40,966 nucleotides of DNA from the NCBI GenBank assembly GCA_025463925.1, contig JAODBK010000102.1:1-40966 (forward strand). Direction: 5' to 3'. The notes beneath the pieces were generated by a model. The model saw nothing but the letters and a program-made list of their open reading frames with translations, had not been told where the DNA came from and searched no databases. The stretch comes from Acidimicrobiales bacterium. Its GTDB lineage: Bacteria; Actinomycetota; Acidimicrobiia; Acidimicrobiales; AC-14. The translations under genes were made by a program, and so were the position numbers. This document shows positions 10,193 through 27,135 of this stretch, piece after piece; position 1 is the first letter of the stretch; every line of letters begins with the position of its first letter.

Positions 10193-10834
10193 ATGCCCAT
10201 CGTCGACGAGCGCATCGAGGCGTACGCGCGAGCCCACACCACGCCGATGCCGGCGCATCTGGAATCGCTCGACGCCGCGACCAGGGACCGATTCGGCCCT
10301 CGGGCCGGGATGCTCACCGGCCCGATCGAGGGCCGCTTCCTCGAGATGCTGGTGTTCGCCGCCGGGGCTCGACGGGTCCTCGAGATCGGCACCTTCACGG
10401 GATACTCGGCGCAGGCCATGGCGGCCGGCCTGCCGCCGGGCGGCACGATCACCACCCTCGAGCTGGACACGGCGCACGAGGCCGTCGCGCGCGAGCACCT
10501 CGCGGCAGCACCGGGCGGCGACAAGGTCGACATCCGGATGGGCCCGGCGCTCACGACCCTCGAATCGCTCGACGGACCCTTCGACCTGGTCTTCATCGAC
10601 GCCGACAAGACCAACTACCTCAACTACTACGAAGCGGTCCTGCCGAAGCTCGGTGAGCGCGGGCTCATCGTGGTCGACAACGTCCTGTGGAGCGGTCAGG
10701 TGCTCGACGACGAGGACGAGAGCGACGACACCAAGGCCATCCGCGCCTTCAACGACCACGTCGTTGCCGACGCGCGGGTGGTGTGCGTCCTCCTGACGAT
10801 CCGCGACGGCGTGATGCTGGTCCGCCGGCGATAG
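10193..10834 (+). CDS. SAM-dependent O-methyltransferase (CCoAOMT-like, class I)
   Basis: 213 residues, the usual length. The SAM-binding motif VLEIGTFTGYSAQAMA, FIDADKTNYLNYYE (metal-binding Asp) and VVDNVLWSG are the three hallmark blocks of cation-dependent caffeoyl-CoA-type O-methyltransferases. These soluble enzymes methylate catechol-like or other vicinal hydroxyls; the actual acceptor is unknown. The ATG sits in a GCATGC palindrome, so an ATG is also readable on the other strand. The sulfotransferase follows after 2 nt, suggesting the two genes modify the same product. Confidence 0.88.
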   Translation: MPIVDERIEAYARAHTTPMPAHLESLDAATRDRFGPRAGMLTGPIEGRFLEMLVFAAGARRVLEIGTFTGYSAQAMAAGLPPGGTITTLELDTAHEAVAREHLAAAPGGDKVDIRMGPALTTLESLDGPFDLVFIDADKTNYLNYYEAVLPKLGERGLIVVDNVLWSGQVLDDEDESDDTKAIRAFNDHVVADARVVCVLLTIRDGVMLVRRR

Positions 10835-10836
10835 GC

Positions 10837-11682
10837 ATGTCCGGCGAGCCACCGCTCCCGAACTTCGTCGTGATCGGCTCGATGCGCGGCGGCACGTCGT
10901 CGCTGACGGTGTACCTGCGCGGCCATCCCGGGGTCTTCATGGCGAAGGTCAAGGAGCTGCACTACTTCGACCACAACTACGACAAGGGCATCGAGTGGTA
11001 CCGCCGCCAGTTCGACGGCTGGAGTGGGCAGCCGGCCGTGGGCGAGGCCTCGCCGTCGTACCTGTTCCTCGAGGAGGCGCTCCCCCGCCTGACGCGCGAC
11101 GTCCCCGAGGCGCGCCTGGTGGCAACCGTTCGCAATCCGGTCGACCGGGCCTGGTCGCACTACTGGTTCTCGGTGGCGCGCGGCAACGAGTCGCTCTCCT
11201 TCGCGGACGCGATCGCGGCCGAGCCGGCGCGGCTGGCCTCCGGTCAGATGTCCCACCGCATCGTGCACTCCTACCTCGCACGCGGGCGATATCTCGCGCA
11301 GCTGCAGCGGGCCGAGAAGCTGGTCGGCCGTGACCGGCTCCACGTCATCGTCTTCGACGACCTGCGTGACCGGCCCGACGCGACCTACGCCGAGCTGTGC
11401 CGGTTCCTCGGCATCGACGACACCGTGCGGCCTCGCACGCTCGGCCAGGCGCGCAACGAGGGCCGCTACGCCCGCCCGCGATCGGCCGCGCTGTCGCGCG
11501 TCGCGCTGCGCCTGCCGGTGCGCCCCCGCCGGGCGATCCTCCGGCGCAACATGCGGTCGGAGAAGGCCGAGCCGATGCGACCGGAGCTGCGCCGCGACCT
11601 GATCGCCCGCTTCGCCGAGGACAACGCCGCGCTCGGCGAGTGGCTCGGCCGCGACCTCAGCGGGTGGTCGCGGGAGCCTTAA
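10837..11682 (+). CDS. Sulfotransferase (heparan N-sulfotransferase-like)
   Basis: 281 residues. IGSMRGGTSSLTVYL near residue 13 is the 5'-phosphosulfate loop, and VATVRNPVDRAWSHYWF is the 3'-phosphate site including the Arg-Asn-Pro and Ser. HYFDHNYDKGIEWYRRQF and GEASPSYLF are typical of the heparan/chondroitin-type Sulfotransfer_1 proteins found in bacterial glycan loci. It probably sulfates a glycan hydroxyl or amine with PAPS. The start is 2 nt after the methyltransferase stop. The stop is followed 7 nt later by a long perfect hairpin. Confidence 0.9.
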   Translation: MSGEPPLPNFVVIGSMRGGTSSLTVYLRGHPGVFMAKVKELHYFDHNYDKGIEWYRRQFDGWSGQPAVGEASPSYLFLEEALPRLTRDVPEARLVATVRNPVDRAWSHYWFSVARGNESLSFADAIAAEPARLASGQMSHRIVHSYLARGRYLAQLQRAEKLVGRDRLHVIVFDDLRDRPDATYAELCRFLGIDDTVRPRTLGQARNEGRYARPRSAALSRVALRLPVRPRRAILRRNMRSEKAEPMRPELRRDLIARFAEDNAALGEWLGRDLSGWSREP

Positions 11683-14306: not shown

Positions 14307-14310
14307 CGTT
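14305..14310 (+). promoter_or_regulatory. -10 element TACGTT for the Tat-exported subunit/GMC operon
   Basis: It lies 6 nt before the GTG at 14317. With TATCGT on the other strand this is the second case in the window of overlapping divergent leaderless promoters. Confidence 0.55.
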
Positions 14311-14316
14311 GACCGC

Positions 14317-15141
14317 GTGCCCAAACCGTTGAGCAGGCGGGCGTTCCTCGGCGCCGCCGGCGGGCTCGGACTGCTCGCGGTGCTCCCACCATCCGTGTGG
14401 GCCGGAGTGTCGGCCGCCGGCCCGCCGACGGTCGGCCAGGCCGGGCGCTTCCTGACGGCGGCCGAGCTCGACGCCCTGCGGGCGATGTGTCACCGCTTCG
14501 TGCCGGGCCCGCCGGACGACCCCGACCCGGGCGCGCGGGAAGCCGGCTGCCCGGAGGCGATCGACCTGTTGCTCGGCGCGTTCACGCTGCCGGTGCCGCC
14601 CATCCACGCCGGCGGGCCGTTCTCCGGTCGCGCCCCGGCCGGCGCCGTCGGCACCCACGACGACTTCGCCGACTTCGTCCCGCTCGACGCGGTGGCCGAG
14701 CTCGGATGGCGGATCCGCATCGAGGGGTCGCTCGGCCGGCCCGAGCGCGAGTTCGCCGGCCCGGTGCGGGGGTGGCAACAGGTGTACCGCGAAGGCCTGG
14801 CCCACCTCGACCACCGCGCCGCGCCGCTGACGTTCGCGTCGCTGCCCGGGCCGGCGCAGGACGCGATCCTCTCCGACCAGTCCGACGCGACCGTGCAGGA
14901 GCTCGTCGGCATCGCGCTCGGCCACACCATCGACGCCATGTACGGGCCGCCCGAGTACGGCGGCAACAAGGGCCTCGCCGGGTGGACGCCGATCGGGTGG
15001 GCCGGCGACGTCCAGCCCCGCGGCTACACCGCGACCCAGGTCTCGAACCTCGACCCGGCGAGCCTGACGCTCGCCGACCGCGCCGATGCGCTGGCCCGGT
15101 TCCGGGCGCTGCTCCCCCATGCCCGCTGGCGCAACCGGTGA
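14317..15141 (+). CDS. Tat-exported gluconate 2-dehydrogenase subunit 3-like protein
   Basis: 274 residues. The N-terminus has a twin-arginine signal (LSRRAFLGAAGGLGLLAVLP), so the protein is exported folded and can carry a partner. The mature part FLTAAELDALRAMCHRFVPG with a helical body matches the gluconate 2-dehydrogenase subunit 3 family. These small subunits accompany GMC flavoprotein catalytic subunits, often lending them their Tat signal. GTG 14317 is the only start that gives a complete signal. The stop overlaps the GMC start (GTGA), supporting a complex. Confidence 0.82.
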   Translation: MPKPLSRRAFLGAAGGLGLLAVLPPSVWAGVSAAGPPTVGQAGRFLTAAELDALRAMCHRFVPGPPDDPDPGAREAGCPEAIDLLLGAFTLPVPPIHAGGPFSGRAPAGAVGTHDDFADFVPLDAVAELGWRIRIEGSLGRPEREFAGPVRGWQQVYREGLAHLDHRAAPLTFASLPGPAQDAILSDQSDATVQELVGIALGHTIDAMYGPPEYGGNKGLAGWTPIGWAGDVQPRGYTATQVSNLDPASLTLADRADALARFRALLPHARWRNR

Positions 15142-16988
15142 GCCGACCGTCGGTCATCGTCGTGGGGTCGGGCGCCGGCGCGTCCGTCGTGGCGTGGCAC
15201 CTCGCGACCACCGGGCACGAGGTGCTGATCCTCGAGAAGGGCCGCCACCTCCTGCCGGGCCTCGGCTCGGCGGCCGGCATCGGTCCGGCGCGGTTCGGCA
15301 ACGACGAGGTCAAGGCCGGCCGGGCCTTCGAGAACCAGGACGACCTGCTCGAGCCGCGCACGGCGCGCACGCAGGCCGAGGCGAACCAGGGCGTGGCCCG
15401 CAGCGTGGTCGGGGACATCAACGACCTGCCGACGTGCGTCGGCGGCGGCACGATCCACTGGGACGCGAAGACCCCGCGGTTCTGGCGGCAGGACTTCAAG
15501 GGCCGCTCGCTGTACGGGCCGGTCGCCGGCGCCAACGTCGCCGACTGGCCGCTCACCTACGAGGACCTCGCGCCCTACTACGACGAGATCGAGCGCCGGC
15601 TCGGTGTGCAGGGCGACGCCGCCCGGATGCCGGCGCGGTCGCAGGAGCAGATGCCGCGCTCGGGCCCCTTCCCGATGCCGCCCAACCCGCCGATGCTGGC
15701 CGGGCTGCGGCTGGCCGAGGGCGCCCGCCGACTGGGCTACACCGCGTACCCGTTCCCGATGGCGGTGAACTCGACCGCGTACGACGGGCGCCCGCCATGC
15801 AACTCGTGTGGCTTCTGCTCCGGGTTCGGATGCCCGATCTCGGCGCGCGGCGGCGCCGCGGTGTCGTTCCTGCACCACGCGCTCCAGGCCGGCGCGCAGC
15901 TGCGGCCGCGGGCGTTCGTGCACCGCGTGGACGTCGATGGCGGCGGCACGCGCGCCACCGGCGTGTCGTGGCTCGATCCCGCCGGCACCGAGCACCACGA
16001 GACGGCCGACGTCGTCGTGCTGGCGGCGTCGGCGATCGAGACGGCGCGCCTCTTGCTGCTCTCCGGCATCGGCAACCGATCCGGCCAGGTCGGCCGGAAC
16101 CTGATGTTCCACCTCTTCACGATCGCCGGCGCGCTCTTCTCCGACGACCTGCACGCGTGGCGCGGCCCGAGCACCACCTTCGTGATCGACGACTTCGTCG
16201 GGCCCGACAAACCACCGGCGGCCGCCGCCGCGGGGCTGCCCTATCTCAAGGGCGGGATCTGCGAGACCGGCGGCACCACGACGCCCGGGCCGCTCGCCGA
16301 GGCCGGGCTCTACACGTCGGTGCCGAATGCGTGGGGCGTCGCCCTGAAGAAGGCGATGCGGGCCGCGGTGTGGCGCAAGCACATCATCGGCCTCTCGATG
16401 GTGGGCGAGGACCTGCCGCAGGAGGCCAACCGCGTCGACCTCGACCCGCAGATCAAGGACCTGCACGGCGTCCCGGTGCCGCGCATCACCCACGCCAACC
16501 ACGACTTCGAGATCGTCGCGTCGAACTACTACGGGCCGCGACTGGCCGCGCTGTGTGGCGCCGCGCCCGGCGCGGTCGGCAGCTCGTTCATCCCGATCGG
16601 CGTGGCGGCGTCGCAGACCGGCGACTTCTCCTCGGCGCTGGCCGGGCCGGCGTCGACCGCCCACATCATGGGGACCTGCCGGATGGGCGACGACCCGACC
16701 CGATCGGTGACCGACGCCTTCGGCCGGCTGCACGACCTCGACAACGTGTGGGTCGCGGACGGCGCGCTGTTCGCGTCGTCGGGCGGTTTCAACCCGACGC
16801 TCACGATCATGGCGCTCGCCCTCCGGGCGGCGCGCGCCGTCGCCGGCGAATCGCCGCTGCCGGCCCAGCCGCCCCGGCCGTCGGGCGCGACGACGCCCTC
16901 GACCGGTGGCTGGGAGGCAGCCGGCGCGGCGGGCGCGGCGGTCGCCGCCGGTCTCGCCGCCCGCCGGCTGGGCCAGTCGCCCGACTGA
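15138..16988 (+). CDS. GMC-family FAD oxidoreductase (sugar/alcohol dehydrogenase catalytic subunit)
   Basis: 616 residues. The Rossmann motif SVIVVGSGAGASVVAWHL is at the very N-terminus with a following LILEKG acidic strand end. CVGGGTIHWDAKTPRFW, a Cys-rich PPCNSCGFCSGFGCP segment, HIMGTCRMG and the C-terminal NVWVADGALFASSGGFNPTL block define the GMC/gluconate-dehydrogenase branch. It has no signal of its own and is probably carried out by the Tat-bearing subunit 3. It should oxidise a sugar or alcohol and pass electrons to a quinone or cytochrome; no cytochrome gene is adjacent. The C-terminus ends in an Ala-rich hydrophobic stretch that could touch the membrane. Confidence 0.88.
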   Translation: MSRPSVIVVGSGAGASVVAWHLATTGHEVLILEKGRHLLPGLGSAAGIGPARFGNDEVKAGRAFENQDDLLEPRTARTQAEANQGVARSVVGDINDLPTCVGGGTIHWDAKTPRFWRQDFKGRSLYGPVAGANVADWPLTYEDLAPYYDEIERRLGVQGDAARMPARSQEQMPRSGPFPMPPNPPMLAGLRLAEGARRLGYTAYPFPMAVNSTAYDGRPPCNSCGFCSGFGCPISARGGAAVSFLHHALQAGAQLRPRAFVHRVDVDGGGTRATGVSWLDPAGTEHHETADVVVLAASAIETARLLLLSGIGNRSGQVGRNLMFHLFTIAGALFSDDLHAWRGPSTTFVIDDFVGPDKPPAAAAAGLPYLKGGICETGGTTTPGPLAEAGLYTSVPNAWGVALKKAMRAAVWRKHIIGLSMVGEDLPQEANRVDLDPQIKDLHGVPVPRITHANHDFEIVASNYYGPRLAALCGAAPGAVGSSFIPIGVAASQTGDFSSALAGPASTAHIMGTCRMGDDPTRSVTDAFGRLHDLDNVWVADGALFASSGGFNPTLTIMALALRAARAVAGESPLPAQPPRPSGATTPSTGGWEAAGAAGAAVAAGLAARRLGQSPD

Positions 16989-17530: not shown

Positions 17531-17547
17531 GGAGGAGCAAGCCTAGG
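17525..17547. repeat. Direct repeat of AGCCTAGG, 15-bp period
   Basis: Copies are at 17525-17532 and 17540-17547 (plus-strand reading). The first contains the SRPBCC -10 hexamer and the second spans the ligase TAG stop. It may be an operator or chance. Confidence 0.35.
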
Positions 17548-19120
17548 ACGACCGCGCGTCGCCGAGCGCGGCCCGGTCGACCTTGCCGCTGGCCGTCTTC
17601 GGCAAACCGTCGTGGATCTCGAACCGGGCCGGCACCATCGCCGGCGCCAGCCGCCGCCGGCACCACGTCGCCAGCTGCCGCGGGGTGACCTCGGCCCGCG
17701 CCACGACGTGCGCGATCAGCAGCGTCGTGAACAGCTCGTCGTCGATCGCCACGACCGCGCACTCGGCGACGTCCGGGTGGGCCGCGACCGCGGCCTCGAC
17801 CTCGGCCAGCTCGACGCGGACGCCGCGCGTCTTCACCTGGTGATCGCGACGGCCGACGACCGTGATCGAGCCGTCGTCCTCGATGACGCCGATGTCGCCG
17901 GTGCGGAAGACGGGCTCGGCGCAGTCGGGGTCGAGCGGGTGCGGTCCGAGCACGCGCCGCGTCTCCTCCGGGCGGCCCCAATATCCCGTCATGACGCCGC
18001 GGCCGCGCGCGTGGATCTCGCCCGATTCGCCGGGGCCGGCGCGGCGCCCGTCCTCGGTGACGACGAACACGTCCATGTTCGGCGCCGGGCGACTGCCCGG
18101 CAGGCGGGCGAACTCGGCGGGCACCGGCTGGGGCATGTGCGCGATGAGGCACACGCCGGTCTCGGTCGACCCATAGCCGTGGCCGAGCCGCACCCCGGGG
18201 AACGCCTCGGAGAGCCGGCGCACCAGCCGGGGCGCCATCCGCTCGCCGGCGAAGGTGATGCCCCGCAGGGCCGGCAGGTCGGCGGCGCTGACGTTGCCGC
18301 GCTCGACCAGCATCGCGAGCATCGACGGCACCCCGCCGAAGAACGCGATCCGGGCGTCGACGAGGAAGCGAGGCAGCTCGGCCGGGAACACCATCACGTC
18401 GGATGCGGGAATGACGAGCGTGGCGCCCGCGACCAACGCGGTTTGGATCTCGCCGACCGCGGCGATGTAGTGCGCCGGCGCGATGTGCGCGAGCCGGTCG
18501 TCCTGGCGCAATCCGAACCAGTCGACACAGAACTCGCCGAGCGTGCCGGCGCACCGATGGGACAGCACGACGCCCTTCGGCGTGCCGGTCGATCCCGACG
18601 TGTAGAGGATCAGCGCGGCGTCTCGTTCGGTGCCGCGGCCGGGCGGCGCGGTGTCCGGCATCCCGGCCAGGCTCCGCTCACCGAACACCACGAGGCCGGC
18701 GTCGGCCGTGGTGTCGGTGTCGTCGCCGAGCGCCACGAGTGATCGCAGGTCGTTGCCCGCGCCGGCCAGGTGCTTGCCGACATCGGCGCGGTCGGCCACC
18801 GTGACGATGGCGCGGATGCCGCAGTCGGACGCGATCGTCGACACCCGCGCCGTCGGCGCCCGATCGTCCAGCGGGACCGCGATGGCACCGGCCTTCGACG
18901 CGCCGTGGCCGGCCGCGATCATGTCGGCCGACCGCCCGAGCCAGAGCCCGACCCGATCGCCCGGCTCGACGCCCGATTCCGCGAGCAGGTGCGCCATGCG
19001 GTTGGCCCGGGCGTCCACCGCGCGGTAGGTCCACGCGACCCCTCGATCCTCCACCGCCACCGCGTCCGGTGTCGCCGCGGCCCACCGCTCGAGGTGGTGG
19101 TGCAGGAGGAACGGGATCAC
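17543..19120 (-). CDS. AMP-forming acyl ligase (ANL superfamily), carrier-protein partner
   Basis: 525 residues, a full ANL enzyme. The P-loop is ILYTSGSTGTPKGVVLSH, A5 is GYGSTETGVC, A7 is VFRTGDIG, and the C-terminal Lys is in LPKTASGKVDRAAL. At the place where amino-acid A domains have FDxS it reads HIAPAHYIAAVGE, so the Asp that holds an alpha-amino group is absent and the substrate is probably a non-amino acid. It should adenylate an acid and load it on the carrier protein encoded just upstream (GTGA overlap at 19117-19120). Gene order resembles the acyl module of exosortase-A loci, from which I infer, not show, an acyl-modification role. Confidence 0.85.
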   Translation of the reverse strand: MIPFLLHHHLERWAAATPDAVAVEDRGVAWTYRAVDARANRMAHLLAESGVEPGDRVGLWLGRSADMIAAGHGASKAGAIAVPLDDRAPTARVSTIASDCGIRAIVTVADRADVGKHLAGAGNDLRSLVALGDDTDTTADAGLVVFGERSLAGMPDTAPPGRGTERDAALILYTSGSTGTPKGVVLSHRCAGTLGEFCVDWFGLRQDDRLAHIAPAHYIAAVGEIQTALVAGATLVIPASDVMVFPAELPRFLVDARIAFFGGVPSMLAMLVERGNVSAADLPALRGITFAGERMAPRLVRRLSEAFPGVRLGHGYGSTETGVCLIAHMPQPVPAEFARLPGSRPAPNMDVFVVTEDGRRAGPGESGEIHARGRGVMTGYWGRPEETRRVLGPHPLDPDCAEPVFRTGDIGVIEDDGSITVVGRRDHQVKTRGVRVELAEVEAAVAAHPDVAECAVVAIDDELFTTLLIAHVVARAEVTPRQLATWCRRRLAPAMVPARFEIHDGLPKTASGKVDRAALGDARSS

Positions 19121-19368
19121 GGCGCGCCGGCTCGCAGCCGATCGACGAAGCGCGCGACCTGCGCCACGGTCTCGAAGTTGTCGCGCACGAGGAGGGCGTC
19201 GTCGATCTCGACGTCGTAGGTCACCTCGAGGTACTCGACGAATGCGAGCAGGCCGAGGGAGTCCAGCACTTCGCGCTCGATCAGCGGCACGTCGTCGGTG
19301 AGGTCGTCGACCGCGCCGAGGTTGCCGTTCTCGAGGAGGTACTCCCGGACGGCCTCGATCGTCGTCAT
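19117..19368 (-). CDS. Acyl carrier protein
   Basis: 83 residues, all-helical. The phosphopantetheine attachment site is EREVLDSLGLLAF with Ser37 in the DSL motif; a VDDLTDDVPLI turn before it and YLEVTYDVEIDDA after it match discrete carrier proteins. It should carry the acyl group loaded by the ligase downstream. The ATG at 19368 overlaps the stop of the Cys-hydrolase (ATGA), and its stop overlaps the ligase start, so the three proteins are made together. Its DLTDDxPL-type turn is also found in the carrier at 24320. Confidence 0.9.
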   Translation of the reverse strand: MTTIEAVREYLLENGNLGAVDDLTDDVPLIEREVLDSLGLLAFVEYLEVTYDVEIDDALLVRDNFETVAQVARFVDRLRAGAP

Positions 19369-20261
19369 GCCCGTGCGTCCAGCCATGACTCGGCGACCGA
19401 CATGATGTCGTCCTGCCCGGCTCGGTCGGCGAACGAGTGCACCACGCCCGGCAGGAAGCGAAGGTCGATGGTCGAGTCGGGCCGCTGCACCACCGCCCCG
19501 AGCCCGCCGGCCATCGCGTCGCGCACGACGTCGCTCATGTCGTCATTCTCCCCGTAGACCAGCAGCACCGGTACCCGCCGCTCGACGAGCGCGGTCAGGT
19601 CGGCCAGGAACGCCGGGCTCACCGTCGCCGGTCCCGCCGACCGGCCGAACGCATGCCGCAACCGGGCCGCCGCCTGGCGGGCGAGCATCCGGCGGCTCCG
19701 GCGATCGTGGAGGAGCGTCGAGGGCGGGTACCGACCGGCCGCCCAGCGGGCCCACTCGCGCAGACCCATCTGCCGGAGCCGCTGCTGCTCGCGCAGCTGG
19801 CCCTGCGTCTCGACGTCGACCGGCGGGGGGCTGAGGAGCACGACGGCGCGGATACCGTCGACGCGCGTCGCCGTCGCCGCCGCCGACCGGGCACCGAAGC
19901 ACGCGCCGTAGAGCACGACGGCGTCGCCGGTCGCGGCGGCCCAGCGAGCCGCCGCCAGGCCGTCGGCCGCGAACGGCTCGGCGGGCGTCCGTTCGGTCAC
20001 CACACCAGTGCTGTCGCCGACGCCGTGCCAGTCGATCCGCAGCACCCGATGGCCGCGGCCGGCGAGTCGTCGGGCGCCCCGCACCCACAACGCGTCGCGG
20101 TGCGTGGCGAACGGCGCGACGAGGCCGGGCAGGATGACGACGGTGATGCCGGTGATGCCGGGCGCGGCCGCCGCCGGACGGGTCTCCACTGCGAACATCG
20201 TCCCCTCGGACGACGCGATGGACACCGCCGTCTCCTCGGACGCGGATGCCATGACGGTCAC
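19365..20261 (-). CDS. Alpha/beta hydrolase with Cys nucleophile (exosortase-A-associated hydrolase 1-like)
   Basis: 298 residues. VVILPGLVAPFATHRDALWVRGARRLAGRGHRVLRIDWHGVGDSTG is the first half of an alpha/beta-hydrolase fold. The nucleophile elbow reads LYGACFGARSA, with Cys where Ser normally sits. VYGENDDMSD and LPGVVHSFAD supply candidate Asp and His, so a Cys-Asp-His triad is possible. I recall the exosortase-A-associated hydrolase 1 group also having Cys here. A thiol nucleophile suits acyl transfer from a carrier protein (inference). The GTG at 20261 forms GTGA with the stop of the partner hydrolase. Confidence 0.78.
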   Translation of the reverse strand: MTVMASASEETAVSIASSEGTMFAVETRPAAAAPGITGITVVILPGLVAPFATHRDALWVRGARRLAGRGHRVLRIDWHGVGDSTGVVTERTPAEPFAADGLAAARWAAATGDAVVLYGACFGARSAAATATRVDGIRAVVLLSPPPVDVETQGQLREQQRLRQMGLREWARWAAGRYPPSTLLHDRRSRRMLARQAAARLRHAFGRSAGPATVSPAFLADLTALVERRVPVLLVYGENDDMSDVVRDAMAGGLGAVVQRPDSTIDLRFLPGVVHSFADRAGQDDIMSVAESWLDARA

Positions 20262-21136
20262 CCGAGCGCCAACCGGGCCGACAACCAGTCGGTGGTGAGC
20301 CCGACGAGCTCGCGGGTCTCCTCCCGCTCCTCCGACGGCTCCCAGTTGTCCTCGCGGAACCACCACTGCGGCGCCTTGGCCACCGGCATCACCGTGACGT
20401 CCAGCCCGGCGGCGCGCCACCGGTCGGCCAGGCCGGCGTGCTCGGCGCTGATCTCCGTCGACTTCTGCAGCTGCACCAGCAGGATCGGCCGCGGTCCCGG
20501 TGGCAACGCGCCCTCGATATCGGCCGCCATCACCGACTCGTAGAACGGCTGACGGATCAGGAACCCCACGACGTCGACCTCACCGCGCGCCGCCAGCTCG
20601 TGGGCCGGCGACCGGCTGGGCTCGTCGCCGCCCGCCAGCGCGCCGACGGCCCGCGTCCGCAGCACCGCCCGCAGATACCGCGCCGGCGCGACGACCGGCT
20701 GCCACAGCACCAGCGGCGCGCCGGGCGCCGCCACCGCGGCGGCGACGATCGCGCCGAGCCGCGTCCCGACGACCGCCGGCCGTTCGATCCCCGCGGTGGC
20801 GCGCAGCAGCTCGGCCACCGCGGCGGCGTCGTCGATCATCGTGCCGACCGTCATCTCGTCGCACGCGTCGCTGTTGCCGGTGCCGCGGTAGTGGAAGCGC
20901 GCGACGGCGATGCCGGCGGCGGCGAGGGCGCGGGCCAGCACGACCTCCTTGCGGTAGTTGGCGTTCTGCTCGGCGTGGACCGGCGAGCACACGACGGCGC
21001 CGGCGCCGGTCGGGCGGGCCGGTCGGTGCAGCGCCACGAAGCAGACGCCGCCCGGCGGCCCGTGGAAGCCCAAGACCTCATCGGAACCGTCGGCGTGCCG
21101 GACGATGGTCTCGCGGTCGAGGGCGACGCTGCTCAA
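20258..21136 (-). CDS. Alpha/beta hydrolase-fold protein with Arg at the nucleophile elbow (exosortase-A-associated hydrolase 2-like)
   Basis: 292 residues. CFVALHRPARPTGAGAVVCSPVHAEQNANYRKEVVLARALAAAGIAVARFHYRGTGNSDA is an alpha/beta-hydrolase core, but the elbow is VVGTRLGAIVAAA, with Arg in place of the catalytic Ser. It is therefore unlikely to be an ordinary hydrolase. It pairs with the Cys-type protein encoded next (GTGA overlap), as in exosortase-A acyl modules. The only start that fits is TTG at 21136, forming TTGA with the stop of the upstream lipoprotein gene; the frame further upstream is the lipoprotein gene in another phase. Confidence 0.75.
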   Translation of the reverse strand: MSSVALDRETIVRHADGSDEVLGFHGPPGGVCFVALHRPARPTGAGAVVCSPVHAEQNANYRKEVVLARALAAAGIAVARFHYRGTGNSDACDEMTVGTMIDDAAAVAELLRATAGIERPAVVGTRLGAIVAAAVAAPGAPLVLWQPVVAPARYLRAVLRTRAVGALAGGDEPSRSPAHELAARGEVDVVGFLIRQPFYESVMAADIEGALPPGPRPILLVQLQKSTEISAEHAGLADRWRAAGLDVTVMPVAKAPQWWFREDNWEPSEEREETRELVGLTTDWLSARLALG

Positions 21137-21651
21137 ATCCGCTGCGACGCCTTCACCGCGAGCCCGCCGATGCCGTCGGCCTCGGCCTGTGACAGGCCCG
21201 TCTGGCCACCGACCCGCTTCAGCTGCACCTGGATGACGGTCTTCTTCACCAGCACGCTGACCTTGTCCTTGCCTTCGGCGGCCTTCTCGCCCAGGTTCGG
21301 GATGTCGTGGGTCTTGTCGATCGCGGTTTCGACGGTGAAGACGGTCTCCGGCGATATGCGGTTTGCTGCGACGGTCGCCGCCGCCGGGCGGATGACCTCG
21401 ACGACGACCGCCCGACCGCCCGGGTTGCCGCCGAGGATCCATGCGCACGACCGGCGACCGCTGTCGTAGTGGTCGTCGCGCTTGTTGGCGGCGGTGATCG
21501 GCACCTTCATCGCCTTGGCCACCTCGCTCGTCTTCACGACCCGGCAGGGGTCCGGCACCCCGTGGCTCGTCGGCACGGCACTGCCGCCGCCGCAACCGGT
21601 CAGGGCGACGAGGGCGAGCGCGACGAAACCACCGAGGGAATTCCGGACCAT
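21133..21651 (-). CDS. Lipoprotein, DUF3558-like
   Basis: 172 residues. The signal MVRNSLGGFVALALVALTGC ends in a lipobox Cys, so the protein is lipid-anchored outside the membrane. The mature part has DPCRVVKTSEVAKAMKVPI, two further Cys/Trp positions (RRSCAWILGG) and a strand-rich end. This is the look of DUF3558-type actinobacterial lipoproteins of unknown function. The ATG at 21651 is preferred over one 30 nt upstream because it gives a compact signal peptide and lies 7 nt after TAGTGT. It heads the hydrolase/ACP/ligase operon. Confidence 0.78.
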   Translation of the reverse strand: MVRNSLGGFVALALVALTGCGGGSAVPTSHGVPDPCRVVKTSEVAKAMKVPITAANKRDDHYDSGRRSCAWILGGNPGGRAVVVEVIRPAAATVAANRISPETVFTVETAIDKTHDIPNLGEKAAEGKDKVSVLVKKTVIQVQLKRVGGQTGLSQAEADGIGGLAVKASQRI

Positions 21652-21658
21652 GGCCGAG

Positions 21659-21664
21659 ACACTA
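21659..21664 (-). promoter_or_regulatory. -10 element TAGTGT for the lipoprotein/hydrolase/ACP/ligase operon
   Basis: It ends 7 nt before the ATG at 21651. It lies in the 71-bp divergent gap facing the pyrrole-module genes, so the two operons may be co-regulated. Confidence 0.55.
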
Positions 21665-21703
21665 GGGCCTCCCACAGCCACCGGCTGCCGGCCCCCGCGC
21701 CCC

Positions 21704-21722: not shown

Positions 21723-22865
21723 ATGGACTTCGACTGGACAGAGGAGCAGGCGGCGCTCCGCAGCTCCGTCATCGCCTTCGCACGGGCCGAGCTTGCCCAC
21801 GACGTCGTCGCGGGTGACGCCGCCGGCGCCTTCCCGCGCGCGGCATGGGACGCGTGTGGGCGCTTCGGGATCCAGGGGCTCCCGATCCCGGAGGTGTTCG
21901 GCGGGCAGGGCGCCGACGCCCTCACCACCATCGGTGCGTTGGAGGCACTGGGGTACGGGTGCCCGGACAACGGGCTCCTGTTCGCGATCAACGCCCATCT
22001 GTGGTCGTGTGCCATGCCGCTGCTCACCTTCGGGTCCGACGCGCAGAAGCGGCGCTACCTCCCCGGGCTGAGCGACGGGTCGCTCATCGGGGTGCAGGCG
22101 ATGACCGAGGCCGACGCCGGCTCGGACTCGTCGGCCATCACGACCACCGCGACGCGCCAGGGCGAGCGCTACCTCCTGCGCGGGGCGAAGACGTTCATCA
22201 CCAACGCGCCGATCGCCGACGTGTTCCTCGTGTTCGTGGTCACGGGTGGCAAGGGCATCGCCCGCACCTCCGCCTTTCTCGTCGACCGCGACACACCGGG
22301 CCTCACCATCGGCCCGCCGCTCGCCAAGATGGGCCTCCGCACCGCGCCCCTCGGGGAGATCGCGCTCGCCGAGTGCGACGTGCCCGCGAGCGCGCGCCTC
22401 GGTGAGGAGGGCGACGGCGGTGCGATCTTCCTCTCGTCGATGGAGTGGGAGCGCGCCGGCATCCTCGCCGGCGCGATCGGCACGATGGAGCGGCAGGTCG
22501 AGCAGTGCATCGACTACGCCCGGACGCGCCGCCAGTTCGGCCAACCGATCGGCGACTTCCAGGCGGTGTCGCACACCATCGTCGACATGAAGCTGCGGCT
22601 GGAGACGGCGCGGCTGCTGCTCTACCGCACCGCGTGGCGCAAGAGCCAGGGGCGGCCGGCGCGGCTGGACGCGTCGCTGACGAAGCTCCACCTGAGCGAG
22701 TGCTTCGTCCAGTCGAGCATCGACGCCCTCCAGCTGCACGGCGGGCACGGCTACTTGACGGACAACGAGATCGAGCGCGACGTCCGCGACGCCATCGCCG
22801 GTCGCATCTACTCCGGTACGTCCGAGATGCAGCGCAACATCGCCGCCCGCATCCTCGGGCTCTGA
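21723..22865 (+). CDS. PltE/CloN3-like aminoacyl (prolyl)-carrier-protein dehydrogenase
   Basis: 380 residues, an acyl-CoA dehydrogenase fold. NGLLFAINAHLWSCAMPLLTFG, MTEADAGSDSS, TFITNAPIADVF and RRQFGQPIGDFQAVSH match, from memory, the flavoenzymes that oxidise prolyl-S-PCP to pyrrolyl-2-carboxyl-S-PCP (PltE, CloN3, RedW). The usual Glu of YEGT is Ser364 (IYSGTSEMQR). Glu243 in SSMEWERAGILAG sits where isovaleryl-CoA dehydrogenase has its base, as expected for this branch. ATG 21723 gives the MDFDW N-terminus. An adenylation protein and a carrier protein follow within the operon. A fatty-acyl role is less likely given these neighbours. Confidence 0.82.
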   Translation: MDFDWTEEQAALRSSVIAFARAELAHDVVAGDAAGAFPRAAWDACGRFGIQGLPIPEVFGGQGADALTTIGALEALGYGCPDNGLLFAINAHLWSCAMPLLTFGSDAQKRRYLPGLSDGSLIGVQAMTEADAGSDSSAITTTATRQGERYLLRGAKTFITNAPIADVFLVFVVTGGKGIARTSAFLVDRDTPGLTIGPPLAKMGLRTAPLGEIALAECDVPASARLGEEGDGGAIFLSSMEWERAGILAGAIGTMERQVEQCIDYARTRRQFGQPIGDFQAVSHTIVDMKLRLETARLLLYRTAWRKSQGRPARLDASLTKLHLSECFVQSSIDALQLHGGHGYLTDNEIERDVRDAIAGRIYSGTSEMQRNIAARILGL

Positions 22866-22868
22866 CGC

Positions 22869-24323
22869 GTGCTGCTCCACGAGCTGCTCGAGGCCGCAGC
22901 CCGGCGCACGCCCCGTCAGGTCGCGATCGTCGACGGCGAGCGCGAGTGCTCGTACGAGGAGCTGGACGCCACCGCCAACCGGCTGGCCAACGGGCTCATC
23001 GGCCGCGGCGTCGAGCCCGGCGATCGCGTCGGCCTCCACCTGAAGAAGTCGGTCGACGCCGTCGCGGCGATCTACGCCACGTTGAAGGCCGGCGCGGTGT
23101 ACGTGCCGCTCGACCCGGACGCGCCCGCGGCCCGCGTCGCGACAGTGGTCGACGACGGCGCGATCGCGCACGTGGTCGACGCCGACCTCGTCGACCGGCT
23201 CGACCGTGGGCCCACCGACGCGCCGGTCGTCGAACGCCGACCCGACGACCTCGCGTACCTCCTCTACACCTCGGGGTCCACCGGCCGGCCCAAGGGTGTG
23301 ATGCTGTCGCACCGCAACGGCACCGCGTTCGTCGAGTGGGCCGGGCGCGAGTACCGCGTGGGCGCCGACGACCGGCTGTCCAGCCACGCGCCGCTCCACT
23401 TCGACCTGTCGATCTTCGACCTGTTCGCCGCCGCCGCGGCCGGCGCCACGCTCGTGCTGGTCCCCCGCCAGGCGTCGATGTTCCCGGTCGAGCTGGCGTC
23501 GTTCATCGAGCGTCGTGGCATCACCGTGTGGTACTCGGTCCCTTCAGTGCTCAACGCGCTGGTCCGACGGGGCGCGCTCGCTCGGGGCGCGCTGCCCGAG
23601 CTCCGGCTGGTGATGTTCGCCGGCGAGGTCTTCCCCACCGCGCCGCTCCGGGCCCTCATGGCCGCGGTGCCCCACGCCCGCTTCGCCAACCTCTACGGCC
23701 CGACCGAGACCAACGTCTGCACCGCGGGCGACGTGCCCGCGCTGCGGCGCGACGACGACGTGGTGCCGATCGGCCGGCCGATCACCGGTGTCGAGGTGGT
23801 GGCCGTCACCGACGACGGCGGGCTCGCCGGCCGCGGCGAGGTGGGCGAGCTGCTGGTGCGGGGCCCGACGGTCGCGGCCGGCTACTGGGGGGATGCGGCC
23901 GGCACCGCGGCCCGATGGGTCGAGTTCCCGCCGGGCGCGGGCGGCGATCGCTGGTACCGGACCGGCGACCTCGCCCGGACGCGGGCCGACGGCGCCTTCG
24001 AGTTCGCCGGCCGTCGCGACGATCAGGTGAAGAGCCGTGGCTACCGCATCGAGCTCGGCGACGTCGAGCACGCGCTCCAGGCCCACCCGCTGGTGGCCGA
24101 GAGCGCGGTCGTCGCCGTCCCCGACGAGCTGTTGACCAACCGCCTCAAGGCGTTCGTCGTGGCGACGTCGCCGGTCACCGTCCACGAGCTGCTGACCGAC
24201 CTCGCCACCCGGCTGCCCCGCGCCATGGTGCCCACCGAGGTGGAGCTCAGGTCCGCCCTCCCGCGGACGGCAACGGGCAAGATCGACCGGCAGCAACTGC
24301 TGAAGGAAGCGACCAACCCATGA
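22869..24323 (+). CDS. Stand-alone amino-acid adenylation protein, probable L-prolyl-AMP ligase (PltF/CloN4-like)
   Basis: 484 residues. The P-loop is LLYTSGSTGRPKGVMLSH, A5 is LYGPTETNVC, A7 is WYRTGDLA, and the Lys is in LPRTATGKIDRQQ. A4 is HFDLSIFDLF, so the Asp (residue 179) that binds an alpha-amino group is present. Reading the ten pocket positions against gramicidin S synthetase by hand gives D-L-F-Y-M-A-L-V-C-K. That is within two conservative changes of DLLYLALVCK, which I recall for pyrrole-pathway proline ligases. It should activate proline and load the carrier protein encoded next (ATGA overlap). No condensation domain is attached. Confidence 0.85.
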   Translation: MLLHELLEAAARRTPRQVAIVDGERECSYEELDATANRLANGLIGRGVEPGDRVGLHLKKSVDAVAAIYATLKAGAVYVPLDPDAPAARVATVVDDGAIAHVVDADLVDRLDRGPTDAPVVERRPDDLAYLLYTSGSTGRPKGVMLSHRNGTAFVEWAGREYRVGADDRLSSHAPLHFDLSIFDLFAAAAAGATLVLVPRQASMFPVELASFIERRGITVWYSVPSVLNALVRRGALARGALPELRLVMFAGEVFPTAPLRALMAAVPHARFANLYGPTETNVCTAGDVPALRRDDDVVPIGRPITGVEVVAVTDDGGLAGRGEVGELLVRGPTVAAGYWGDAAGTAARWVEFPPGAGGDRWYRTGDLARTRADGAFEFAGRRDDQVKSRGYRIELGDVEHALQAHPLVAESAVVAVPDELLTNRLKAFVVATSPVTVHELLTDLATRLPRAMVPTEVELRSALPRTATGKIDRQQLLKEATNP

Positions 24324-24568
24324 CGACCGCCGACAAGCTCCGCCGGTACATCACCGCCGAGGTCGTCTGGACCGGGCCGGTGTCCGACCTGACGGACGAC
24401 TACCCGCTGCTCGACAACGAGGTGTTCGACTCGATGGCGCTGATGCAGATGCTGGCGTTCATCGAGGAGGAGTTCGACGTCGAGATCGACGACGTCGAGC
24501 TGACGCCGCGGCACTGGCGCACGATCGCCGACATCGCCGCGCTGGTGGAGTCCAAGCTCCCGTCATGA
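24320..24568 (+). CDS. Peptidyl carrier protein of the pyrrole-like module
   Basis: 82 residues. The attachment Ser38 is in NEVFDSMALMQML; flanking DLTDDYPLLD and EEEFDVEIDDVEL are typical of discrete carrier proteins (PltL/CloN5 size class). It should be phosphopantetheinylated and carry prolyl, then pyrrolyl, groups between the ligase, dehydrogenase and halogenase. The ATG overlaps the ligase stop. Its own stop overlaps the end of the convergent halogenase gene, with stop codons at 24566-24568 and 24563-24565, so the two operons meet tail to tail. Confidence 0.9.
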   Translation: MTTADKLRRYITAEVVWTGPVSDLTDDYPLLDNEVFDSMALMQMLAFIEEEFDVEIDDVELTPRHWRTIADIAALVESKLPS

Positions 24569-25843
24569 CGATCGGCGGAGCGCGCCCGGGCGGAGGAGGT
24601 TGTCGGCGTCCTCGCCGACGCGGGCGGCGGCGTCCTTCATCAGTGCGATGACCTCGCGCGCCTGGGCCAGTGTCTCGGGCATGTACAGGTTGCCCTGGAG
24701 TATGCGCACGACGCGCTCGCGGAACCGTCGCCGCACCGCGAACGACGAGAAGAGGTTCTGCAGCGTGTAGAAGAGCTTGATCAGCTCGTACCACGCCTCG
24801 ACGCCGTCGCTGAGCCGGGTCTCGAACCGGGCCAACTCGCCGGCTTCGTCGCCGCCGGCGAGCGCCGCCTCGATGGCCTCGAACCCGTAGAGCGCCGAGA
24901 ACGCGGCCACGTCCACGCCGGTCGAGAAGATCGGGTCCACGAAGCGCAGCGAATCGCCGATCAGGAGCCAGCCGTCACCCTGGACCCGGTCGAGCACGTA
25001 GGAGTAGTCGCCCTCCACGCTGAAGGGCCGGATGCGCTCGGCGCCGGCCATGACGTGGGCGAAGGTGCGGTTGCGCGCCACCAGGCTCGCGAAGAACGCT
25101 TCGTTGCTCGTGCCGGCCTCCCGGAAGTCGGCCTTGTCGGTGACGACGCCGACCGACCACACGCCGTTGCGGAGCGGGATCTGCCAGGCCCAGGCGCGCT
25201 CGAGGCCGAGGAAGTGCAGGAACAACATGCCCTCGGTCCCGGCCGGTGGTGCGGCCAGCCCGGTGAACCACGAGTAGATGCCGAACTGGTTGAACGACGG
25301 GTCCTTCTTCTTGAGGCCGAGCTGGGTGCCGAGCAGGCAGTTGCGGCCGGACGCGTCGACGACGAAGCGGGCGGTGACGTCGTGCTCCCACCCGTCGGCC
25401 ACCCGTACCCGCGCGCCCGAGGCCCGGCCATCGGCGTCGAACAGCACCTCCTGCACCCGCGCCCCTTGCACGACCTTGGCACCCAGCTCGTGGGCGTGCC
25501 GCAGCAGCATGGCGTCGAAGACGTCGCGCTCGACGTTGTACGTGTACGGCTGGATCGCCCACGGCGGGGGGAACTCGGCCAGCCGGATCTCGAGGAACTT
25601 GCCCACCGGCGCGTCCGGCGCCGTCCAGCACGCGCCGGGCTTGTGCACGAAACCCGCCTCCTCCATCTTCTCGAGGAAACCGATCCGCTGGAACACGGTG
25701 TTGGTCGACGGTGTCAGCGACTCGCCGACGTGGTCGCGTGGATGGATGTCGCGCTCGACCACCATCACGTCGCGGCCGGCCATGGCGAGGAGGCTTGCGA
25801 TGACCGCGCCCGCCGGCCCGCCGCCGATGACCAGGACGTCCAC
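24563..25843 (-). CDS. Flavin-dependent halogenase, PltA/Clo-hal-like
   Basis: 426 residues. The FAD motif GGGPAG is at 7-12, followed by HVGESLTPSTN and GFVHKPGACWT (Lys68 is the candidate catalytic lysine). W218-x-W220-Q-I-P223 is the WxWxIP halogenase motif that separates these enzymes from monooxygenases, and FVDPIFSTG (301-309) matches the second halogenase motif. The family acts on carrier-bound pyrroles or phenols using FADH2, O2 and halide. A flavin reductase is not visible nearby. The GTG at 25843 shares a base with the TAG of the upstream dehydrogenase. A non-halogenating flavin oxidase remains possible. Confidence 0.8.
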   Translation of the reverse strand: MDVLVIGGGPAGAVIASLLAMAGRDVMVVERDIHPRDHVGESLTPSTNTVFQRIGFLEKMEEAGFVHKPGACWTAPDAPVGKFLEIRLAEFPPPWAIQPYTYNVERDVFDAMLLRHAHELGAKVVQGARVQEVLFDADGRASGARVRVADGWEHDVTARFVVDASGRNCLLGTQLGLKKKDPSFNQFGIYSWFTGLAAPPAGTEGMLFLHFLGLERAWAWQIPLRNGVWSVGVVTDKADFREAGTSNEAFFASLVARNRTFAHVMAGAERIRPFSVEGDYSYVLDRVQGDGWLLIGDSLRFVDPIFSTGVDVAAFSALYGFEAIEAALAGGDEAGELARFETRLSDGVEAWYELIKLFYTLQNLFSSFAVRRRFRERVVRILQGNLYMPETLAQAREVIALMKDAAARVGEDADNLLRPGALRRSS

Positions 25844-27135
25844 TACAAGTCGGCGGTGGCCTGGTCGAGCAGGCCGGCGAACTTCTCCAGCGCCGCCGCC
25901 CGGCGCGTGGGGACGTGCTCCGTCGGCGGGTCGACCGGCTGGTAGCCCTTCAGGATCTGGCGGGCCACCGTGACCTTGTGCACCTCGTCCGGCCCGTCGT
26001 AGATGCGGGCGGCGCGGGCGTAGCGGTACATCGCCTCGAGCGGCAGGTCGGCCGAGTAGCCGAGTGACCCGTGCACCTGGATGGCGCGGTCGATGACGTT
26101 GTAGAGCGCCCGCGCGCCCCAGAACTTGATCATGCCGATCTCGGTGCGGGCCGCCGACGCGCCGTCCCGGTCCATCTTCCACGCGGCGTGCAGCGTCATC
26201 AGCCGGGCCGCCTGCATCTCGGCCGCCGACTCGGCGATCCAGTCCTGGATCATCTGCTTCTCGGCGAGGTACGAGCCGTGGGTGAACCGTGACACCGCCC
26301 GCTCGCACATCATGTCGAAGGCCCGCCGGCTCTGGCCGAGCCACCGCATGCAGTGGTGGATGCGGCCGGGGCCGAGCCGCTTCTGCGCCAGCACGAAGCC
26401 GTCGCCCTCGCGGCCGACGAGGTTCTCGTACGGGACGCGGACGTCGCGGTAGATGATCTCGGAGTGGCCGCCGAACTTCGGCACCGGCCCGCTGGGGTGC
26501 TCCATCGTCGGCACGTCGCGCAGGATGTCGACGCCCGGAGTGTCGGTGGGCACGATGATCATCGAGCTGCCCTGGTACGGGTGGACGTCGGGATTCGTCA
26601 CCACCATGACGATGAGGAAGTCGGCGATCGACCCATTCGACGTGAACCACTTGTGGCCGTTGATGACCCACTCGTCGCCATCGCGCAACGCGCTCGTCTT
26701 CAGCAAGGTGGGATCAGCGCCGGCACCGGGCTCGGTCATCGAGAACGCGCTGCGCAACTTGCCGTCGAGCAGCGGTTGCATCCAGCGCTGCTTCTGATCC
26801 TCGTTGCCGCCGACGGCCAGCAGCTCGGCGTTGCCGGAGTCCGGCGCCTGATTGCCGAAGATCGACGGCGCGAAGAGGCACGAGCCGAGGATCTCGTGCA
26901 TGAGGCCCAGCTTCACCTGGCCGAAGCCGCCGCCGCCCAACTCGGGCGGGAGGTGGGCCGCCCACAGCCCCTGGTCCTTCACCTGCTGCTTCAGCGGGTC
27001 GGTGATGCGGCGCCACGTCGCCTCGTCGCCCTGGACGTCGAGCGTCTCGAGCGGCCAGATCTCCTCGCGCACGAAGGCGCGCATCCACGCGAGCTTCGCT
27101 TCGAACGCGGGCTCCGTTTCGAAATCCCATGCCAT
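25843..27135 (-). CDS. Acyl-CoA dehydrogenase (ACAD10/11-like)
   Basis: 430 residues. FSMTEPGAGADPTLLKTSA, WVINGHKWFTSNGSIADF, HGSLGYSADLPLEAMYRYARAARIYDGPDEVHK are blocks of the ACAD10/11-like branch, in which Asp of IYDGPDE stands at the catalytic base position. Other members use CoA thioesters of medium or long chains, some hydroxylated. It is translationally coupled to the halogenase (TAGTG), so it may act in the same pathway, but it could equally be a general fatty-acid enzyme. The ATG at 27135 follows TAGCGT by 8 nt. Confidence 0.87.
   Translation of the reverse strand: MAWDFETEPAFEAKLAWMRAFVREEIWPLETLDVQGDEATWRRITDPLKQQVKDQGLWAAHLPPELGGGGFGQVKLGLMHEILGSCLFAPSIFGNQAPDSGNAELLAVGGNEDQKQRWMQPLLDGKLRSAFSMTEPGAGADPTLLKTSALRDGDEWVINGHKWFTSNGSIADFLIVMVVTNPDVHPYQGSSMIIVPTDTPGVDILRDVPTMEHPSGPVPKFGGHSEIIYRDVRVPYENLVGREGDGFVLAQKRLGPGRIHHCMRWLGQSRRAFDMMCERAVSRFTHGSYLAEKQMIQDWIAESAAEMQAARLMTLHAAWKMDRDGASAARTEIGMIKFWGARALYNVIDRAIQVHGSLGYSADLPLEAMYRYARAARIYDGPDEVHKVTVARQILKGYQPVDPPTEHVPTRRAAALEKFAGLLDQATADL

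Follow-up and report, generated by a model that had tools for sequence, protein, structure and literature searches.

A pyrrole-forming carrier-protein cassette beside glycan genes in an Acidimicrobiales bacterium may serve an exported polysaccharide

Introduction

The pyrrole of pyoluteorin primes a polyketide synthase (PKS), and the Bmp pathway releases a bromopyrrole. Other pyrroles are destined for sugars. In clorobiocin biosynthesis, according to passages of PMC11218499, CloN4, CloN5 and CloN3 make the pyrrole acyl group, CloN2 transfers it to the carrier CloN1 and CloN7 places it on a sugar 3′-OH. Portions of PMC11218499 and PMC8748450 describe the same kind of transfer for clorobiocin and coumermycin, from a second carrier to a sugar hydroxyl via CloN7/CouN7. 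On these partial accounts, it is the closest worked-out system to the locus considered here, a four-gene cassette at positions 21723-25843 of contig JAODBK010000102.1 (GenBank assembly GCA_025463925.1) from an Acidimicrobiales bacterium. The window is that entire contig, labelled C82 (40,966 bases, 73% G+C); the host genome measures 4.08 Mb and is 96.7% complete. L-numbers denote loci (the surroundings of dehydrogenases, ligases, halogenases and so on), G-numbers genomes and C-numbers contigs.

The cassette encodes a prolyl-type dehydrogenase (DH), a ligase (LIG), a carrier protein (PCP) and a flavin halogenase (HAL). The best explanation of the locus is that a carrier-made, perhaps halogenated pyrrole would be moved by a neighbouring hydrolase-fold protein (HYD1) to an exported glycan, a proposal whose chances fall just short of even. 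It builds on gene identities, operon layout, a proline-type pocket, the halogenase group, elbow residues and a linkage that recurs in relatives.

A prolyl-carrier cassette with a PltA-group halogenase

The four genes are arranged as follows.

21723..22865, + strand: DH, acyl-CoA dehydrogenase of the prolyl-carrier-protein (pyrrole-forming) type
22869..24323, + strand: LIG, stand-alone amino-acid adenylating ligase, pocket DLFYMALVCK
24320..24568, + strand: PCP, stand-alone carrier protein with a DSM phosphopantetheine site
24563..25843, − strand: HAL, flavin-dependent halogenase of the PltA/Bmp2/ChlB4 group

DH, LIG and PCP are one operon. An alternative ATG for DH lies at 21705, but aligned relatives in the PDB start matching at the second ATG (21723).

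The best PDB match of DH is the prolyl-ACP dehydrogenase AnaB (436 bits, 1.2e-129), an enzyme that halts at a dehydroproline. It is followed by 6cxt, named a butyryl-CoA dehydrogenase (347 bits), by L-prolyl-carrier dehydrogenases (291 and 288 bits) and by entries of at most 264 bits. Among NCBIfam models, DH scores 420 bits with PigA (9.7e-126; cut-off 500) and 409 bits with RedW (2.1e-122; cut-off 650). In a tree of 46 rows, none of them a characterised enzyme such as RedW, PltE or CloN3, 39 rows with DH among them form one clade (99/96), separate from seven generic dehydrogenases. L023 and L052, with identical DH and apparently one record, were both kept in this tree and in the pocket table. 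Collectively, the assignment of DH as a prolyl-carrier-protein-type dehydrogenase is well supported by sequence comparison. A reading of DH and LIG as fatty-acid enzymes was dropped on account of the DH ranking, the DH tree and the Asp-containing LIG pocket.

Within the tree, a 10-row clade (100/98) gathers nine rows labelled as linked to a non-ribosomal peptide synthetase (NRPS), two of them identical, together with Roseovarius; the NRPS-labelled L024 and Brasilonema (L087) fall outside it. An 11-row clade (92/94) contains six of the ten rows labelled for sulfotransferase or exopolysaccharide (EPS), plus L079; Wzz and sulfotransferases are found around this one too (L092). The other rows so labelled are dispersed: L021 and Microvirga pair up, L040 is sister to the NRPS clade and Roseovarius lies inside it. 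The window DH sits on a long branch without firm placement, its nearest rows by path being L034, L079 and L037.

LIG exceeds the cut-off of the amino-acid adenylation model TIGR01733 (395 bits, 2.5e-118; cut-off 317) and matches L-proline–carrier ligases of the PDB (6o6e, 358 bits; 7thn, 275 bits). PCP exceeds that of PF00550 (PP-binding; 27.5 bits, 3.7e-6; cut-off 20.8) and has the DS motif. The ten pocket positions were located by motif on the alignment, in a first table of 23 rows that included a second window ligase (LIG2) and two domains from contig C56. The LIG pocket, DLFYMALVCK, is one change from the DLFYLALVCK of its relatives and two from the DLLYLALVCK of Brasilonema, which we take to be the code of characterised L-proline ligases; an open-access literature text search returned no paper carrying the pocket strings. 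DLFYLALVCK is found in seven relatives (L021, L034, L036, L037, L042, L043 and L045), and L038 has the same pocket with its last position missing. No NRPS-size gene was seen near these seven or L038, the contigs of L038 and L042 being only 4.8 and 8.4 kb long. NRPS-linked rows read DLLYLGVGCK (L044, L046), DLLYLGVGVK (L047), DLLNLGVGCK (L048, L049) and DLLNAGVGVK (L051). Further pockets are DLFYVAIGCK (L023, L052), CFFYLAVVCK (L024), DLLYCALVCK (L026) and DLFYIAWVCK (L035). Among rows added later, Microvirga and Streptomyces clavuligerus (L089) have DLFYLALVCK, Brasilonema and L096 DLLYLALVCK, L098 DLFYVALVCK, L099 DLFYVAWVCK, L095 DLFYAALVIK and Roseovarius DIFFIGSMCK. Because of the exceptions in this table, the pocket tracks context in most but not all rows. 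The description of LIG as a stand-alone adenylation enzyme with a proline-type pocket is well supported by these matches, and proline would be its real substrate.

HAL searches used a query (24563-25846) one codon longer at the start than the gene. The best matches are ChlB4 (315 bits, 4.8e-93), PltA (305 bits, 8.1e-90) and Bmp2 (298 bits, 7.3e-88), followed by 8zop (185 bits) and CmlS (167 bits); none of the other entries listed exceeds 185 bits. The WxWxIP (AWAWQIPL) and FxxPxxSxG (FVDPIFSTG) motifs, the Lys of GFxxKxGxxW and the flavin adenine dinucleotide motif align with PltA, ChlB4 and Bmp2. With all 18 rows in the halogenase tree, HAL stands beside long branches and has no settled placement; with the long rows L061, L062 and L064 removed, it belongs to a ten-row PltA/ChlB4/Bmp2 group (100/99), as sister to the other nine rows (84/80). 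HAL is thus, with good support from sequence, placed as a PltA-group carrier-dependent flavin halogenase. Among the 17 class genomes with DH, the window genome is joined by four others with PltA-group halogenases, G205, G265, G286 and G357 (five tree rows between them), and G308 has a PltA-type fragment too short for the tree. These class halogenases (L065, L066, L067, L068 and L069) lie away from a prolyl cassette, some at contig ends; in L067 the halogenase is followed by a carrier protein at the contig end. The halogenases of L037 and L021 match several halogenases about equally and were rejected as members of the HAL group. A cyanobacterial plasmid, pBOCT1 of Brasilonema octagenarum (L087, 10485-25131), carries P450-DH-LIG-ACP-HAL-NRPS-PKS in one direction, with a halogenase of the PltA group. 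This gene order supports a four-enzyme unit, and the row looks like a halogenated-pyrrole natural product cluster.

A first-pass annotation, made from the sequence without database searches, had named a PltE/CloN3-like dehydrogenase, an adenylation protein and a carrier protein in overlapping genes, with a flavin halogenase tail to tail. Profile and PDB matches bear out the gene identities. The overlap exists between LIG and PCP (ATGA) but not between DH and LIG, as LIG begins three bases past the DH stop. The two halogenase motifs it cited are those aligned above, and the tail-to-tail arrangement is real, the HAL stop and the PCP end sharing six bases. The trees agree with its assignments, DH standing apart from generic dehydrogenases and HAL joining the PltA group once the three long rows are set aside. 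Its appeal to known pathways survives for pyoluteorin and lapses for pyrrole chlorination in clorobiocin: Clo-hal chlorinates the aminocoumarin and not the pyrrole, according to passages of PMC11218499, so that only the pyoluteorin-type precedent fits HAL.

Neighbouring genes that may deliver the acyl group

Further genes, most of them for acyl chemistry, lie on either side of the cassette.

17543..19120, − strand: LIG2, second acyl ligase, pocket IAGGTAGVCK without the alpha-amino-binding Asp
19117..19386, − strand: ACP2, second stand-alone carrier with a DSL motif (PF00550, 24.7 bits; cut-off 20.8)
19365..20261, − strand: HYD1, alpha/beta-hydrolase fold with Cys at the nucleophile elbow (GACFGA), proposed acyltransferase
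20258..21136, − strand: HYD2, alpha/beta-hydrolase fold with Arg replacing the nucleophile (GTRLGA), proposed non-catalytic partner; its TTG start is guessed
21133..21681, − strand: small lipoprotein-like open reading frame (ORF) between HYD2 and DH, with no Pfam or NCBIfam match
25843..27135, − strand: ACAD2, generic acyl-CoA dehydrogenase upstream of HAL (PF00441/PF02770)

LIG2, ACP2, HYD1 and HYD2 lie on the strand opposite to the DH-LIG-PCP operon, with overlapping ends. LIG2 scores barely above the cut-off of TIGR01733 (320 bits; cut-off 317) and 291 bits with the exosortase-A ligase model TIGR03098 (cut-off 592). As it lacks the pocket Asp, it should not accept an alpha-amino acid. HYD1 matches TIGR03100 at 55.6 bits (cut-off 168) and HYD2 matches TIGR03101 at 70.9 bits (cut-off 203); by these profiles they are distant members of the ‘hydrolase 1/2, exosortase A system-associated’ families. 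The exosortase model PF09721 has no match in the genome (96.7% complete), and membership of the set in an exosortase/PEP-CTERM system was rejected for want of an exosortase.

The elbow residues are conserved. Cys121 of HYD1 is invariant in the eight aligned sequences, and a partial ninth (L095) also has Cys; a His near the end is present in six of the eight. HYD2 has Arg at its elbow in eight of nine aligned sequences and Lys in one. AlphaFold2 models (mean predicted local distance difference test score, pLDDT, 80 for HYD1 and 85 for HYD2) place Cys121 between a strand (114-120) and a helix (122-131), and the Arg likewise between strand and helix in the manner of a nucleophile elbow. Foldseek searches with both models return general lipases and feruloyl esterases and no specific transferase. 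Several free-standing transferases of carrier-bound acyl groups are alpha/beta hydrolases with Cys or Ser.

HYD2-type sites, with tandem neighbours merged, number 32 and occur in 15 of 24 genomes. Nine HYD2/HYD1 sites lie within 20 kb of DH against 0.25 expected, at nine of 27 DH loci. The pair is not specific to glycan loci, because it is also found beside NRPS-linked cassettes. On contig C7 of the window genome (L100), two longer HYD2-like proteins are encoded at 10215-11837 (+ strand, GLRFGA elbow) and 12264-13940 (− strand, GLRMGA elbow); the surrounding 20 kb has no DH or LIG match.

On the other side of the cassette, the ACAD2 stop codon and the GTG start of HAL share one base. ACAD2 matches general dehydrogenase models only, the best in NCBIfam being acryloyl-CoA reductase at 209 bits, well under the cut-off of 640.

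Glycan context in the window and in relatives

The window glycan genes comprise five GT2-type glycosyltransferases, two sulfotransferases and an export pair.

724-1701, − strand; 2579-3982, − strand; 4002-4853, + strand; 4908-5963, + strand; 7498-8400, + strand: GT2-type glycosyltransferases (Pfam)
about 1941-2561, − strand: sulfotransferase domain (Pfam), inside the ORF 1641-3302
5960-6730, + strand: ABC-2 permease (Pfam)
second half of the ORF 5995-7488, + strand: Wzt/TagH-like export ATPase (NCBIfam Wzt/RfbE, 159 bits, under the cut-off of 400)
10687..11682, + strand: second sulfotransferase (PF13469, 52.9 bits; cut-off 27)

The export ATPase is closest to the Wzt and TagH models, under the cut-offs of both. 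The ORF at 8401-10188 (+ strand) is probably no gene; the opposite ORF at 8407-10614 (− strand) is also without Pfam match. Between glycan block and cassette, at 11711-16988, lie ORFs resembling an N,N-dimethylformamidase beta subunit, an alpha/beta hydrolase, a gluconate 2-dehydrogenase subunit 3 and a GMC oxidoreductase, in overlapping reading frames with uncertain gene calls. At the far end (35730-40875, − strand), a DNA polymerase III alpha-type and an ImuB-like (IMS family) protein adjoin, as in a mutasome.

A survey of the class found 20 DH places in 17 of 395 genomes. Twelve were called non-NRPS and eight NRPS; these calls were made manually and relied on large ORFs that have additional adenylation matches, or on a fragment combining adenylation and carrier parts, rather than on condensation-domain matches. 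A second search gave 10 genomes with a DH match; two of them, G000 and G022, belonged to the class set already, G558 (a 3.3 kb contig) was excluded and seven were added. Sulfotransferases lie within 20 kb at eight of the 12 non-NRPS places (24 seen, 0.63 expected) and at one of the eight NRPS places (1 seen, 0.17 expected), counts whose Poisson values are too small and serve only as a guide because sulfotransferases are clustered. Wzz lies within 20 kb at three of the 12 non-NRPS places and at none of the eight NRPS places. Three of the four non-NRPS places free of sulfotransferase are on contigs shorter than 9 kb.

Individual loci show the same company. An ABC-2 permease adjoins DH in L038 and lies within ∼4 kb of it in L039 and L043, and Wzz is near the cassette in L034 and L037. 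L037 reads HYD2-HYD1-DH-PCP-LIG, with a halogenase and Wzz 5 kb further; L095 has Wzz, HYD1, HYD2, LIG, DH and PCP; L092 has sulfotransferases, HYD1, HYD2, ABC, DH and Wzz, with no LIG match. The clearest glycan-linked case is Microvirga sp. VF16, an isolate obtained from the plant Vachellia farnesiana, with a 1.39 Mb plasmid carrying GT2, PCP-LIG-DH, GT4, GT4, a bacterial (priming) sugar transferase, Wzz/GNVR, GT4 and Wzy; in these 25 kb LIG is the sole adenylation match and there is no NRPS. On a plasmid of Roseovarius pelagicus (L090, 209-18795), PCP-DH-methyltransferase-LIG stands among flippase, NRPS, YjbH/YjbF and polysaccharide export genes, perhaps for a peptide-modified polysaccharide.

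Two further loci were recorded. L021 (2977-18505), from a betaproteobacterial metagenome-assembled genome, contains DH, ligase, an MFS transporter, carrier, two halogenases and a lipid A acyltransferase-like gene, preceded by sulfotransferase and TPR-sulfotransferase-type genes. Plasmid pSCL4 of S. clavuligerus (L089, 3-21141) encodes a prolyl-type DH, a ligase with DLFYLALVCK and further genes with adenylation matches, which its record leaves unannotated.

Proposed route and alternative explanations

LIG would activate L-proline and load it onto PCP, and DH would oxidise prolyl-PCP to pyrrolyl-2-carboxyl-PCP. As judged from the sequences, the route is very probable up to this point. The probable substrate of HAL is an aromatic acyl group on a carrier, in the simplest case the PCP-bound pyrrole; whether it acts on this very pyrrole is put at even chances. 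HYD1, with its Arg-elbow partner HYD2 and perhaps via ACP2, would pass the acyl group to a glycan hydroxyl. The glycosyltransferases of the same contig would build the glycan, the sulfotransferases would modify it and the ABC exporter (Wzz/Wzy-type in relatives) would bring it to the cell surface. Delivery of the pyrrole to a surface glycan is tentative, a little less probable than its opposite. It is tempting to propose, more tentatively still, that Acidimicrobiia and Alphaproteobacteria such as Microvirga, hence members of at least two phyla, decorate exported and often sulfated polysaccharides with pyrrole-2-carboxyl groups, some halogenated and partly delivered by HYD1/HYD2.

Several findings weigh against this proposal. 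DH falls under the curated equivalog cut-offs of the RedW and PigA models; the RedW cut-off is surpassed in none of the searched genomes (sets of 395 and 396). In the window, ∼13-21 kb separate DH from the exporter and the glycosyltransferases, a gap that holds GMC-oxidoreductase, formamidase-like and other genes, and the two Wzz matches of the window genome are on contig C14, not C82. No LIG match was found near DH in L022, L025, L040, L041, L092, L093 and L094, and L040 and L041 count among the 12 non-NRPS places. S. clavuligerus L089 falls in the 11-row DH clade and has the DLFYLALVCK pocket, yet a 1,173-residue, NRPS-size gene with an adenylation match is nearby. Brasilonema reads DLLYLALVCK with NRPS and PKS in the locus. 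In Roseovarius, the locus includes an NRPS, the pocket is divergent (DIFFIGSMCK) and DH belongs to the NRPS clade. As to delivery, the 25 kb Microvirga locus has no HYD1/HYD2 match, 18 of the 27 DH loci lack the pair within 20 kb (many on short contigs), three of the nine loci that have it are NRPS-linked (G286:C338, G357:C17 and G022:C20) and the expected His is absent from two of the eight aligned HYD1 sequences. As to halogenation, none of the other 16 class genomes with DH has a PltA-group HAL on the DH contig.

The pyrrole might instead prime a small peptide or polyketide made by an assembly line encoded elsewhere. The first-pass annotation had stated that the locus is without PKS or NRPS condensation domains, and indeed no condensation or ketosynthase domain matched on contig C82. 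Genome-wide there is one condensation domain, on C56, in an ORF with two adenylation domains. There is also one strong ketosynthase match (154 bits), which adjoins a FabH-type match on C80. Ten others, all short and weak (20-28 bits; nine exceed the cut-off), are probably thiolases, and none of them lies on C82. The assembly line could be this C56 NRPS or could lie beyond the contig ends; sister cassettes are NRPS-linked, Brasilonema continues from DH-LIG-ACP-HAL into NRPS and PKS, and the S. clavuligerus cassette shares the glycan-linked pocket beside its NRPS-size gene. Such a starter role is nevertheless unlikely: C56 is a separate contig whose first adenylation domain has a pocket that could not be read, a genome 96.7% complete offers no second condensation domain and a single strong ketosynthase match, and the nearest rows of the DH tree (L034, L079 and L037) are near Wzz and sulfotransferases. 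A secreted small glycoside, with pyrrole on a small-molecule sugar as in clorobiocin and coumermycin, would agree with the second carrier and the alpha/beta-hydrolase-fold proteins of the window. It has the closest worked-out precedent in CloN4/N5/N3, CloN1 and CloN7 acting on the sugar 3′-OH, on the partial accounts cited above. Still, the window glycosyltransferases belong to the GT2 type and resemble EPS and lipid-linked-sugar enzymes weakly, at scores under the cut-offs, an ABC exporter pair is present, and relatives lie beside Wzz, Wzy or a priming transferase. Moreover, contig C82 has no match to β-ketoacyl-ACP synthase III (KASIII), presumably the CloN2 counterpart, and a small glycoside is quite improbable.

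An alternative limited to the halogenase is compatible with the glycan proposal in all other respects: HAL may act on the acyl group of LIG2/ACP2, or separately with ACAD2, and leave the pyrrole unhalogenated. LIG2/ACP2 would offer another carrier-bound substrate, and HAL is on the opposite strand to PCP, in an operon-like pair with ACAD2. HAL also branches outside the nine-row PltA/Bmp2/ChlB4 crown (84/80), ChlB4 itself being presumably no pyrrole halogenase, and the isolation of PltA-group halogenases from DH contigs in the other 16 genomes points the same way. Against this stand the tail-to-tail overlap of HAL and PCP and the one-strand DH-LIG-ACP-HAL block of Brasilonema, whose halogenase is of the same group; a separate role for HAL is plausible without being probable. 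Finally, cassette and glycan genes could be chance neighbours in a gene-rich accessory region, in view of the unrelated metabolic genes between them and the mosaic nature of many single genomes. Recurrence of the linkage across several families of the class and in Microvirga makes mere coincidence decidedly improbable.

The carrier-made pyrrole moved to an exported glycan is the narrower, unproved form in which the ‘new end use’ of the first-pass annotation stands. A new use does not follow from a missing assembly line, because clorobiocin and coumermycin already deliver pyrrole via CloN7/CouN7, on the partial evidence of PMC11218499 and PMC8748450. The stretch it had marked (21723-25843) does contain the cassette; it omits the likely delivery genes LIG2-ACP2-HYD1-HYD2 (17543-21136) and the glycan genes.

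Significance

Among the non-carbohydrate substituents of bacterial polysaccharides, acetyl, pyruvyl, lactyl, amino-acid and sulfate groups predominate. The chemistry of pyrroles on carriers is known, and what is apparently new is its use; several related cassettes in a like context suggest that the sugar coats of some bacteria may carry pyrroles. An open-access literature search found no paper linking pyrrole-2-carboxylate to polysaccharide or exopolysaccharide, none linking a flavin halogenase to Acidimicrobiia and none on exosortase-A hydrolases. If the proposal is true, pyrrole groups would alter cell-surface chemistry and recognition, the more so when halogenated. A pathway familiar from antibiotic precursors would then have a second use in the cell envelope, where a natural-product module would act as a system for glycan modification. 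Two ‘hydrolase’ families so far named by neighbourhood alone would gain a testable role. Microvirga sp. VF16, a cultivated isolate with a compact NRPS-free locus, is suited to the question of pyrrole on glycan.

Comparison with known systems

With the pyoluteorin PltE/PltF/PltL/PltA set and the Bmp set, the window shares four kinds of enzymes; it differs in that its contig has no PKS and that HAL branches beside the crown group, as its sister, and not within it. The exosortase A set (TIGR03098, TIGR03100 and TIGR03101) is resembled by LIG2, HYD1 and HYD2 as distant relatives forming one gene set with a carrier; in contrast, window scores are under the curated cut-offs, the genome has no exosortase match and a prolyl cassette lies alongside. 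According to parts of PMC8748450 and PMC7966384, CmaE/SyrC/CysB, CouN7 and LgnA are free-standing transferases that move carrier-bound acyl groups. HYD1 can be likened to CmaE, SyrC and CouN7 by its proposed role, and unlike them is paired with an Arg-elbow paralogue; LgnA, as PMC8748450 presents it in part, has Ser where HYD1 has Cys.

Clorobiocin and coumermycin come closest. Both they and the window have a stand-alone dehydrogenase, a proline ligase and a carrier, and in both a second carrier is present. Their acceptor is a small aminocoumarin glycoside and their halogenase acts on the aminocoumarin, on the same partial accounts, whereas the window has no KASIII match on its contig and instead an exporter, sulfotransferases and a Cys/Arg hydrolase pair. 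In its position and in the role suggested for it, HYD1 would correspond to CloN7.

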